Assembly (NCBI RefSeq): GCF_016901035.1
Contig: NZ_JAFEUF010000052.1
Location: 3,369 to 35,989 of the forward strand
Direction of reading: 5' to 3'
DNA length: 32,621 bases
Origin: Streptomyces durocortorensis
Lineage (GTDB): Bacteria > Actinomycetota > Actinomycetes > Streptomycetales > Streptomycetaceae
Within the stretch, counting starts at the first letter, position 1. Each line of letters begins with the position of its first letter. The notes under the pieces are model-generated. The model did not search any database, had not been told where the DNA came from, and saw nothing but the letters and a program-made list of their open reading frames with translations. The position numbers and the translations under genes are program-made. Shown here one piece after another: positions 19,548 to 21,650 of this stretch.

Positions 19548-19566
19548 CGCGTGCACGTGCATCTGC
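19548..19566 (+). repeat. Left copy of a 19-bp inverted repeat (putative operator)
   Basis: CGCGTGCACGTGCATCTGC lies 75 bp upstream of the DUF397 start. Its exact reverse complement is at 20581-20599, upstream of the ATPase gene. It contains the perfect palindrome TGCACGTGCA (19552-19561). Partial similarity continues downstream, with a further TGCAT in both copies. Confidence 0.85.
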
Positions 19567-19591
19567 TCATGCATTGGCATATGAACAGAGC

Positions 19592-19597
19592 TATGAT
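19592..19597 (+). promoter_or_regulatory. Putative -10 element of the DUF397 gene
   Basis: TATGAT is a good -10 hexamer, 44 nt before the GTG start and 25 bp after the 19-bp repeat. No matching -35 at normal spacing is seen. An alternative -35-like TTGACA lies at 19607. A regulator on the 19-bp repeat would sit at or just upstream of the -35 region. Confidence 0.4.
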
Positions 19598-19641
19598 CCG
19601 AGCTAGTTGACACTTGCACCTTGCAACTCGGGGAGCGTCCT

Positions 19642-19884
19642 GTGCACCACGTGTACAACGGCATGGCGGCCACAGAGCTTCGCGGAGTCGTCTGGCAGAA
19701 GAGCAGGCACAGCAACTCCCAGGGATCCTGCGTGGAGTTCGCGCGGCTGCCCGGAGGGAATGTGGCGATGCGGAACTCCCGTCACCCCGACGGGCCCGCC
19801 CTCGTCTATACGCCCGCGGAGATCGAGGCGTTGCTGCTGGGCGTCAAGGACGGCGAGTTCGACCATCTCGCGGCCGGCGCCTGA
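19642..19884 (+). CDS. DUF397 domain small protein (whiJ-cluster type)
   Basis: An 80-residue protein that is almost entirely one DUF397 domain: VVWQKSRHSNSQGSCVEFARLPGGNVAMRNSRHPDGPALVYTPAEIEALLLGVKDGEFD. In Streptomyces such small proteins are encoded beside XRE/DUF5753 regulators, often with an RsbW-like ATPase. In the whiJ locus the small protein opposes or modulates its regulator (established for WhiJ and its neighbour). The same three gene types are all present here within 2 kb. GTG 19642 is chosen for the GGGGAGC six bases upstream; TTG 19621 is less likely. It is convergent with the ATPase gene, with a 25-bp palindrome at the junction. Confidence 0.92.
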   Translation: MHHVYNGMAATELRGVVWQKSRHSNSQGSCVEFARLPGGNVAMRNSRHPDGPALVYTPAEIEALLLGVKDGEFDHLAAGA

Positions 19885-19931
19885 CGCCGGGCCCGGCCCA
19901 CGAAGGACCGGACCGGGGCTCTTCGTGAGCC

Positions 19932-20450
19932 CTACTTCCCCTTTTCCGGCAGCCGGAAAAGGGCCCAGACGACCTTGCCGTACAGCGGCCCGGAAGGCAG
20001 TTCTCCGAGCGGCGCGGGAGAGGGGTGCCAGCCCCAGCTGTCACTGACGCATTCCACCAGGAACAGCCCCCGGCCCGATTCGGCGGAATCCGCCGCCTCG
20101 CCCGCCACCGGGCTCTCCCGGCTGGGATCGCGCACCGCGCACACCAGCCGCGAGGTCCACCGCATCAGATGCAGGCGCACCGGCGGGTCCTGGAACTCCC
20201 GGGGCGGGTCACCGGGCAGCGCGTGGCGCAGGGCGTTGGTGACGAGTTCGGACACCACCAGGGCGACATCGTCGAACCGGTCTCCCAGCTCCCACCGCTC
20301 CAGCGTGGTCCGGGTGAACTTCCGTGCGCCGCCGACCGCTTCGTAACGCGCGGGCAGAGCGCAGGAAGCCGATCCGGCAACCCCTGAGGGGTCGGTGGGG
20401 GGAAGCCCCTGCCGTAACGGCTCGAGCATCGTCGATCCATTCGTCCCCAT
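19932..20450 (-). CDS. RsbW-like ATP-binding regulatory protein
   Basis: A 172-residue single-domain protein with a GHKL/HATPase fold of the anti-sigma-factor type. The N box is DVALVVSELVTNALRHA with Glu68 and Asn72, the Asp-containing ATP contact is VCAVRDPS (about 103-110), and the G box is SGRGLFL (about 125-131). There is no histidine kinase dimerisation domain. Such proteins bind ATP and may hold a partner sigma factor or regulator. In Streptomyces they are part of whiJ/abaA-type clusters. ATG 20450 has GGGAG 8 nt upstream; the longer frame to 20567 adds Pro/Cys-rich sequence from the repeat region and is rejected. A copy of the 19-bp repeat lies about 130 bp upstream. Confidence 0.9.
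   Translation of the reverse strand: MGTNGSTMLEPLRQGLPPTDPSGVAGSASCALPARYEAVGGARKFTRTTLERWELGDRFDDVALVVSELVTNALRHALPGDPPREFQDPPVRLHLMRWTSRLVCAVRDPSRESPVAGEAADSAESGRGLFLVECVSDSWGWHPSPAPLGELPSGPLYGKVVWALFRLPEKGK
19939..19963. terminator. Palindrome at the convergent DUF397/ATPase gene ends
   Basis: A perfect inverted repeat of CCCTTTTCCGGC around one central A, inside the last codons of the ATPase gene and 55 bp after the DUF397 stop. Its place between convergent genes suggests a terminator for the DUF397 transcript. Confidence 0.55.
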
Positions 20451-20474
20451 ACGAGGCACTCCCGGGATTCGCGG

Positions 20475-20504
20475 CTGTAGCGGCACTGCCTGTAGCGGTA
20501 CTGC
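20475..20504. repeat. Tandem 15-bp repeats in the ATPase gene leader
   Basis: CTGTAGCGGCACTGC is followed directly by CTGTAGCGGTACTGC (one mismatch). A partial third copy, TACAGCGGCAC, starts at 20511. They lie 25-70 bp upstream of the ATPase ATG. Confidence 0.75.
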
Positions 20505-20580
20505 GGGGGGTACAGCGGCACAACACGAGCACGCAGGTGCGCGGGGACCATGGTTCCGAATGCGCACAGCAGATGCAAGG

Positions 20581-20599
20581 GCAGATGCACGTGCACGCG
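20581..20599 (-). repeat. Right copy of the 19-bp inverted repeat (putative operator)
   Basis: GCAGATGCACGTGCACGCG is the exact reverse complement of 19548-19566. Read on the minus strand toward the ATPase gene it has the same orientation as the left copy has toward the DUF397 gene. A further TTGCATCTGC follows it, as a direct repeat of its own end. Confidence 0.85.
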
Positions 20600-20786
20600 C
20601 CGGACCTGCCCGATACCGTGGTGGTTACGGGGCATTTCTTCCCGGGGTCAGTTTCGGAGCTTTCCGGACGTCTTCCCATTTCCGTAATCGAATGAGTACG
20701 GGCTGAAGCGTTTTGGTGGCAGAATCCGGCACTCCGGGGTTCGGGGGGCCCCGGTGCCAGGGAAGGCGATGGGGAGGGTCGGGCCA

Positions 20787-21650
20787 GTGTCGGCAGGCGA
20801 GTCGAGTGGATCGGTGGTGCGGCGCATCCTCCTGGGCTCTCAGCTCAGGAGACTGCGGGAGTCGCGCGGAATCACCCGTGAGGCGGCCGGCTACTCGATC
20901 CGGGCCTCCGAATCGAAGATCAGCCGCATGGAGTTGGGACGGGTGAGCTTCAAGGCCAGGGACGTCGAGGATCTGCTCACGCTCTACGGAGTGGCCGACG
21001 AGGCGGAGCGGGACTCCCTTCTCGGTCTGGCCCGCGAGGCCAACGTGGCGGGCTGGTGGCACAGTTACGGTGACGTGCTGCCCGGCTGGTTCCAGACGTA
21101 CATCGGCCTGGAGGGCGCCGCCTCCCTCATCCGCATCTACGAAGTCCAGTTCGTGCACGGGCTGTTGCAGACCGAGGCGTACGCCCACGCCGTCGTCTCG
21201 CGCGGAATGCGCGGCGCCTCGCCCGCCGAGATCGACCGCCGCGTCGCCCTGCGCCTGGAGCGCCAGAAGGCCCTCGTGTCCGAGCGCGCCCCGGCGTTCC
21301 ACGCCGTGCTCGACGAGGCGGCGCTCCGCCGCCCGTACGGCGAACGCGAGGTCATGCGCGCCCAATTGCGGCATCTGATCGATATGTCGGAGCAGCCCAA
21401 CATCACGCTCCAGGTCATGCCCTTCGGTCACGGCGGCCATGCGGGCGAGAGCGGCGCATTCACCATGCTGCGTTTCCCGGAATCCGATCTGTCGGACATC
21501 GTCTATTTGGAGCAGCTGACGAGCGCGCTCTATCTGGACAAGCCCGAAGAAGTCGCGCAGTACGAAAAGGCGATGGCGGCTCTCGCTCAGGAGAGTCCGG
21601 CGCCGGAGGAGAGCCGGGATCTTCTGCGCGGTCTACTCCAACTGACGTAA
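20787..21650 (+). CDS. XRE-family regulator with DUF5753 (WhiJ-like)
   Basis: A 287-residue DNA-binding protein. The N-terminal helix-turn-helix (about 18-70) reads LGSQLRRLRESRGITREAAGYSIRASESKISRMELGRVSFKARDVEDLLTLYGV. The remainder is a DUF5753 domain (about 95-275), with IRIYEVQFVHGLLQTEAYAHAV, LRLERQKAL, LDEAALRRPYG and NITLQVMPFGHGGHAGESGAFTMLRFPE. This is the architecture of WhiJ and its many Streptomyces paralogues, which work with adjacent DUF397 proteins in developmental and antibiotic control. GTG 20787 is chosen because GGGGAGGG lies 8 nt upstream; ATG 20754 and 20769 are in frame. It is divergent from the ATPase gene. It is the natural candidate for binding the 19-bp repeats, an inference. 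Confidence 0.92.
   Translation: MSAGESSGSVVRRILLGSQLRRLRESRGITREAAGYSIRASESKISRMELGRVSFKARDVEDLLTLYGVADEAERDSLLGLAREANVAGWWHSYGDVLPGWFQTYIGLEGAASLIRIYEVQFVHGLLQTEAYAHAVVSRGMRGASPAEIDRRVALRLERQKALVSERAPAFHAVLDEAALRRPYGEREVMRAQLRHLIDMSEQPNITLQVMPFGHGGHAGESGAFTMLRFPESDLSDIVYLEQLTSALYLDKPEEVAQYEKAMAALAQESPAPEESRDLLRGLLQLT

Follow-up and report, generated by a model that had tools for sequence, protein, structure and literature searches.

A 32,621-nucleotide stretch of Streptomyces durocortorensis DNA (assembly GCF_016901035.1, contig NZ_JAFEUF010000052.1, positions 3,369 to 35,989 of the forward strand; hereafter the window) raises the question of why a 19-bp sequence recurs about 1 kb away, without a single mismatch and in inverted orientation, around two convergent genes. 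The genes encode a DUF397 protein (plus strand) and a HATPase_c_2 protein (minus strand) and are followed by a gene for an XRE regulator with HTH_31 and DUF5753 domains (plus strand) and then by an aldehyde dehydrogenase gene. An HTH plus DUF5753 XRE, a DUF397 and an AbaA-like HATPase, all scoring above the Pfam cut-off, identify the first three as a whiJ-type trio. One conserved repeat array accounts for the inverted pair: a copy of it stands at the predicted promoter of each partner gene. We propose, with a probability of roughly two in three, that these arrays would serve as the private operator of the WhiJ-like (SCO3421-type) XRE protein, which is predicted to repress both partner genes by way of their -35 regions.

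The initial annotation had described a perfect 19-bp inverted pair around the convergent genes of a whiJ-type trio, with each copy facing its own gene and with further similarity beyond the repeat, and had judged a chance match very unlikely. The exact coordinates and the Pfam matches bear out this description (Table 1): one copy points toward DUF397 on the plus strand and the other toward the ATPase gene on the minus strand, and none of 100 dinucleotide shuffles of the window contained two matches at up to three mismatches. The first ten bases of the 15-bp core (TGCACGTGCATCTGC) form a perfect palindrome (TGCACGTGCA), and a further TGCA unit, TGCATTGGCA on the DUF397 side and TGCATCTGC on the ATPase side, starts 18 bp after the core's first base. 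Read on the strand of the respective gene, the DUF397-side array consists of the units TGCACG, TGCATC, TGCTCA, TGCATT and GGCATA, followed at a distance by TATGAT, and the ATPase-side array of TGCACG, TGCATC, TGCCCT, TGCATC and TGC, followed at a distance by AACCAT.

Scanning the whole S. durocortorensis assembly (7.96 Mb in 616 contigs) located the 15-bp core once per strand, both times at this locus. When up to two mismatches were allowed, 27 matches were obtained, compared with 55 for the reversed pattern. Because the two-mismatch matches do not exceed the reversed control, the near-consensus regulon of the site appears to be this locus, with degenerate sites elsewhere being possible. The same near-exclusive location was found when the search was extended to related genomes: the pattern TGCACGTGCATNTGC matched in all 37 same-genus genomes, on both strands in 31 of them, and 67 of its 69 exact matches lay at this locus, compared with 8 matches for the reversed pattern across the same genomes. 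One of the two remaining exact matches is unassignable, lying at a contig end without genes (G001), and the other (L071, in G027) has none of the three genes nearby.

Conservation within Streptomyces was followed in two sets of loci. The larger one, referred to below as the named loci, consists of the best 80 of 591 loci from a separate scan, nearly all of them from Streptomyces, and includes one record labelled Microtetraspora glauca and one metagenome-assembled genome. The repeat is conserved upstream of these orthologous gene pairs: the ATPase-side core was exact in 80 of 80 loci, and the DUF397-side core was exact in 66, with one mismatch in 13 and two mismatches in 1. All 80 had the order DUF397 (plus), ATPase (minus), XRE (plus), the two sites were 995 to 1643 bp apart (median, 1077 bp), and none of these 6- to 8-kb loci contained a third site at up to one mismatch. 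The first set comprised 36 loci including the window, after L056 had been dropped because no gene was found on the fragment; it shares six contigs with the named loci, giving 110 distinct loci in total. Here the ATPase-side core had no mismatch in 35 loci and one in 1, and the DUF397-side core had none, one or two mismatches in 25, 10 and 1 loci, respectively. After alignment on the site, the first ten bases carried 2.0 bits per column at both promoters, while the outer flanks on the DUF397 side dropped to 0.2 to 0.35 bits; the upstream flank on the ATPase side, toward the XRE promoter region, retained 0.7 to 1.1 bits in most ten-base blocks. Of two divergent same-genus loci, L154 had both sites and L155 had the ATPase-side site, with no DUF397 gene found.

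Matches to the XRE protein extend well beyond the genus. With an E-value limit of 1e-50, under which paralogues count too, each of 197 genomes of the order had a match; with a limit of 1e-75, matches occurred in 75 of 246 genomes taken from the class, 22 of the 75 being same-genus. From the listed matches we selected 80 XRE loci (78 from other genera and 2 from the same genus) and added two loci from the pattern search, so that the comparison set held 82 loci from 57 genomes in nine families, some genomes contributing several loci. A site was called when a sequence with at most one mismatch to TGCACGTGCA lay within 450 bp upstream of a trio gene. By this definition, a site was present in 61 of 65 loci in which the XRE gene has a DUF397 or ATPase gene as its partner (63 of the 65 being from other genera), compared with 2 of 17 XRE loci without a partner, and site-bearing loci were found in all nine families. 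For 59 other palindromes of the same letters, at most one mismatch again being allowed, the mean was 2.9 loci and the largest value 13; exact copies of TGCACGTGCA were present in 53 loci, against a mean of 0.12 and a maximum of 3 for those palindromes. In the first 40 loci, 47 exact cores were observed, compared with 0.3 expected from first-order Markov resampling (at most 2 in 30 runs).

The position of the site depended on gene order. Where DUF397 stands apart from the XRE gene, in either orientation, the site preceded DUF397 in all 32 cases, and where DUF397 directly precedes the XRE gene this was so in 12 of 14. Where DUF397 lies directly behind the XRE gene, only 3 of 12 loci had the site before DUF397, and 8 of the 12 carried it before the ATPase or XRE gene instead. 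The three loci L311, L312 and L315 have a site between the XRE gene and the downstream DUF397 gene, contrary to the usual pattern for that order. With an upstream limit of 420 bp and the first 42 loci, the corresponding counts were 19 of 20 (apart), 0 of 8 (behind) and 6 of 7 (preceding). Fisher tests gave values of 3e-7 for apart versus behind and 5e-11 for partners versus no partners, which are only descriptive because related genomes are not independent. A site that moves with its partner gene fits one operator per transcription unit rather than the end of a transposon or of an invertible segment.

Before both partner genes a -10-like box begins 40 bp from the core's first base, which places the last repeat unit on the predicted -35 position. 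On the DUF397 side of the named loci, TATGAT was found at +40 in 67 of 80 and at 39 or 41 in 4; in loci with longer arrays its offset was 52 to 54 in 8 (exactly 52 in five of them) and 64 in 1. These longer arrays are extended by one or two units, each about 12 bp long, and leave the distance between the nearest unit and the -10 box unchanged: the nearest TGC[AG] unit lay 22 to 23 bp from TATGAT in 77 of 80 loci and 21 bp in 1, and none was found in 2. On the ATPase side, TTGCAT occupied the -35 position in 77 of 80 loci and AACCAT the -10 position in 61 of 80. Since the nearest unit sits on the predicted -35 box of both promoters, a bound protein and RNA polymerase would compete.

We infer that the neighboring XRE/DUF5753 protein binds the arrays, because it is a constant neighbor and because partnerless XREs mostly lack the site. 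By manual count, the putative recognition helix IRx[ST]ESKISR occurred in 38 of 63 site-bearing loci, and close variants (ESKM, HAK, HSK, GSK and others) occurred in most of the remainder. In those paralogues of the S. durocortorensis genome with a readable helix, several extracted segments not having been helices, the helix differs and the exact core is absent. One family offers a possible correspondence between protein and DNA letters: all eight site-bearing loci with a SHAK...GQ helix (L176, L178, L179, L281 to L284 and L288) have CTTAC, not the commoner CTTGC, in the third ATPase-side unit. On the DUF397 side of this family TTAC occurred in just 3 of 6, and the pairing of SHAK with CTTAC may be a single evolutionary event. 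No site was found at four other loci with an HAK helix (L181, L309, L310 and L317).

In the mechanism that we favor, the XRE/DUF5753 protein would bind both arrays, cover the -35 boxes and repress DUF397 and the ATPase gene together. An analogy with published studies of WhiJ and BldB suggests feedback, in which the DUF397 protein would modulate the XRE protein. The ATPase is probably an anti-sigma-like effector, and its output would need both relief of repression and the bldA tRNA, which would read the TTA codon found in this gene and in 78 of the 80 orthologous frames of the named loci. The suggestion of the initial annotation that one operator is used twice by the adjacent XRE is thus strongly supported, as far as sequence comparison goes, by the named loci, the other families and the way in which the site follows its genes. 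Its further suggestion, that the regulator sets the ratio of DUF397 protein to ATPase, fared less well: the array is common to both promoters, yet the predicted -10 boxes differ and the ATPase gene carries the TTA codon as an extra gate.

The sign of regulation is the least secure part of this proposal. We consider repression by occupancy of the -35 box probable; a rather unlikely alternative keeps the operator and the XRE binder as proposed and has the XRE protein activate both promoters by binding just ahead of poor -35 boxes, in the way proposed for WhiJ9 at iosA. Activation is quite possible because WhiJ9, the sole characterised relative with a mapped operator, is required for the activation of iosA in a bldB mutant, an effect described as likely direct in the available text of that study (PMC10294661). 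Both predicted promoters also have poor -35 hexamers (ATGCAT and TTGCAT), and the near-constant distance of the nearest unit from the -10 box would suit an activator as well. Occlusion, however, is suggested by the nearest unit, which coincides with the -35 box, and the offset from core to -10 box varies by family (+40, +29 and +23, in few loci), a variation that an activator would tolerate less readily; the -10-like boxes at +29 and +23 again put a TGCA unit near the -35 position, on the thin basis of those few loci. The model published for whiJ is also one of repression, lifted by the DUF397 partner (PMC4255298, PMC6262351).

Besides the precedent of WhiJ9, several other points weigh against the proposed operator or against repression. 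Activators, too, bind in the region immediately ahead of a -35 box, where the distal units are found, and the rise of five abaA paralogues in a bldB mutant may reflect an activator being released. Both promoters are predicted, their -10 boxes having been assigned by similarity to the consensus, which is weak for the ATPase gene; in 24 listed stretches per side from outside the named loci, a TA-N3-T box near the site was found in just 11 on the DUF397 side and 4 on the ATPase side. Four of the 65 partner loci have no site (L161, L181, L310 and L320). Six further loci (L145, L146, L303, L304, L306 and L308) share the ESKISR helix, with no partners found and no local site; their XRE proteins might act on operators elsewhere in the genome. 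The cross-species counts are phylogenetically non-independent, and the upstream limit in the site call was raised from 420 to 450 bp midway, which added L165 (424 bp). The 27 two-mismatch matches of the S. durocortorensis genome comprise the exact pair, one neighboring array unit and 24 others that were counted as a group.

In another reading, the site belongs to a global regulator unrelated to the XRE protein, such as a sigma factor or a developmental master regulator. Published work lends this some substance, since sco3424 appears in a sigma-E target list (PMC6767563) and another sigma-E study mentions SCO3423 (PMC10771440), as far as the accessible portions of these papers go; other inputs may therefore reach the locus. 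A global regulator would be expected to act at many loci, yet the genome shows no excess of sites beyond this locus, nearly all exact matches in the 37 same-genus genomes are found here, and the scarcity of sites at partnerless XREs ties the motif to the trio. We regard this explanation as improbable. A perfect inverted pair could also be a recombination site flanking an invertible 1-kb segment, a possibility raised in the initial annotation. Alternatively, with some 1 kb and two genes between them, the copies could be the terminal repeats of a transposon-like element with DUF397 and the ATPase gene as its cargo. Neither idea withstood the comparison, and we give both almost no weight. The flipped order was found in 0 of the 110 distinct loci, the gene order around the pair is identical in all 80 named loci, and the genes between the repeats encode DUF397 and HATPase proteins, not a transposase. 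In other gene orders the site stays with its own gene, trio genes so arranged carry sites too, and sites without an inverted partner occur where DUF397 follows the XRE gene. Both ideas were rejected on the constant order in the genus and the single or re-ordered sites elsewhere, no search for empty sites having been made.

The private-operator reading can be extended to a closed three-gene circuit, in which we have somewhat less than even confidence when its parts are taken jointly. In this circuit, the XRE protein would have its only near-consensus genomic sites at the two promoters of its partner genes, DUF397 and the ATPase gene; the arrangement would have been kept across at least nine actinomycete families, with the operator moving along with the genes; the DUF397-side array would change by whole repeat units and so act as an evolvable rheostat; ATPase output would pass two gates, the operator and the bldA tRNA; and in one clade the operator letters on the ATPase side would shift with the helix, from CTTGC to CTTAC with SHAK. 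The candidate operator leads one to expect joint switching of the two partners and a near-consensus regulon confined to this locus.

Clusters of the whiJ/bldB/abaA type are very numerous in Streptomyces, and little is known of their targets. The initial annotation had called the operators of such systems poorly defined, which is largely true; the one mapped operator that we met is that of WhiJ9 in Streptomyces venezuelae, where three 10-bp direct repeats (CGXXCTCAAC) were identified in a 34-bp oligonucleotide, according to the available text (PMC10294661). Because WhiJ9 binds direct repeats, a repeat array is an established type of operator for WhiJ-family proteins, and phased repeat units, to which the XRE protein is predicted to bind, are present here as well. 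The iosA-whiJ9-bldB9 locus likewise has a WhiJ-family XRE beside a DUF397 gene and, in the intergenic region before a partner gene, repeated units. Direct comparison of the letters showed, however, that the WhiJ9 repeat is absent from both arrays of the window, and whereas WhiJ9 has a single site, located 113 bp ahead of the iosA start site, here there are two sites, one per partner, with a palindromic core.

The trio fits the description of the SCO3421-SCO3423-SCO3424 cluster of Streptomyces coelicolor in the accessible parts of two reports (PMC4255298, PMC6767563), one of which lists SCO3424 as similar to AbaA and BldB (PMC6767563), and an AbaA-like gene with a TTA codon, which marks that cluster, is present here. 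Orthology to SCO3421-SCO3424 is suggested by this published description rather than by sequence comparison; the sigma-E site string printed for sco3424 had no match in the S. durocortorensis contigs or in the same-genus loci. The cluster in the window is likely one of the most widely conserved of its type. We found no operator for the SCO3421-type cluster in the openly readable literature, and among the listed matches to TGCACGTGCA in published text no title concerned an actinomycete. The whiJ (SCO4543)-SCO4542-SCO4544 locus shares all three gene families with the locus described here. For whiJ, the accessible text proposes a repressing XRE that is relieved by its DUF397 partner (PMC4255298, PMC6262351), and describes SCO4543 as present in few streptomycetes and its targets as not known (PMC4255298). 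Relative to the literature searched, the letters of the candidate operator, its palindromic core, its use in two copies (one per partner), its conservation across families and the near-single-locus regulon appear to be new. A precise candidate operator is now available for direct binding or reporter assays, and tracking a site through changes of gene order is a way to seek the operators of other paralogues.

Table 1. Features of the trio locus, in window coordinates
Feature	Position	Strand	Basis
Candidate operator array before DUF397: palindrome TGCACGTGCA, then TGC units; holds the 19-bp repeat at 19548-19566	19548..19579	+	sequence, conservation
Predicted -35 box ATGCAT of the DUF397 promoter (last repeat unit)	19569-19574	+	position relative to -10
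Predicted -10 box TATGAT of the DUF397 promoter, 40 bp from the core's first base	19592..19597	+	consensus match
DUF397 (BldB/SCO4542-like) gene, 80 amino acids, likely GTG start	19642..19884	+	Pfam PF04149, E 6.8e-20
HATPase_c_2 (AbaA/anti-sigma-like) gene, likely start ATG 20450	19932..20450	-	Pfam PF13581, E 8.2e-12 (translated from 20567)
TTA leucine codon within the ATPase gene	20415-20417	-	read from sequence
Predicted -10 box AACCAT (weak match) of the ATPase promoter, register +40 as on the DUF397 side	20550..20555	-	consensus match
Predicted -35 box TTGCAT of the ATPase promoter	20573-20578	-	17 bp before -10
Candidate operator array before the ATPase gene, in the ATPase-XRE divergent gap; holds the 19-bp repeat at 20581-20599	20569..20599	-	sequence, conservation
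XRE regulator gene, WhiJ-like	20769..21650	+	Pfam PF19054, E 7.3e-61; PF13560, E 8.7e-16 (translated from 20754)

The start of the XRE gene is uncertain (GTG 20754, ATG 20769 or GTG 20787). Comparison with solved structures gave no match at an E value of 0.01 for the XRE and ATPase proteins and a single unconvincing match (E 0.26) for the DUF397 protein. A protein search with the DUF397 sequence gave 1214 proteins. A DUF397 gene directly behind the XRE gene, which is the common, non-obligatory whiJ-type order, is not the order here. Of the 23 other XRE matches in the S. durocortorensis genome, at least 18 have it. Twenty paralogue stretches holding 21 of these 23 matches (contigs C209 and C8 were left out) lacked the exact core and contained three one-mismatch matches to it. 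Twin sites as a rule for every trio of this genome were rejected, as the best ungapped match between the ATPase-XRE gap and the region upstream of DUF397 scored 7 to 12 in ten trios; an 11th trio had no DUF397 gene, and the locus described here stood outside that scoring. In one paralogous trio (L129), a 12-bp direct repeat, TTGGAACTCTCA, occurs twice in the ATPase-XRE gap, 14 bp apart, and is a candidate operator of that paralogue.

Two further sequence features lie between the arrays. In the region 19885-19960, the convergent DUF397 and ATPase genes end 47 bp apart, and the GC-rich sequence there possibly acts as a shared two-way terminator; such terminators are reported at many XRE-DUF397 units of S. 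clavuligerus in the available text of PMC8269248. A 15-bp tandem repeat, CTGTAGCGGCACTGC and CTGTAGCGGTACTGC, with 14 of 15 positions alike, occupies 20475-20504, in the predicted leader of the ATPase mRNA between the putative operator and the start codon.
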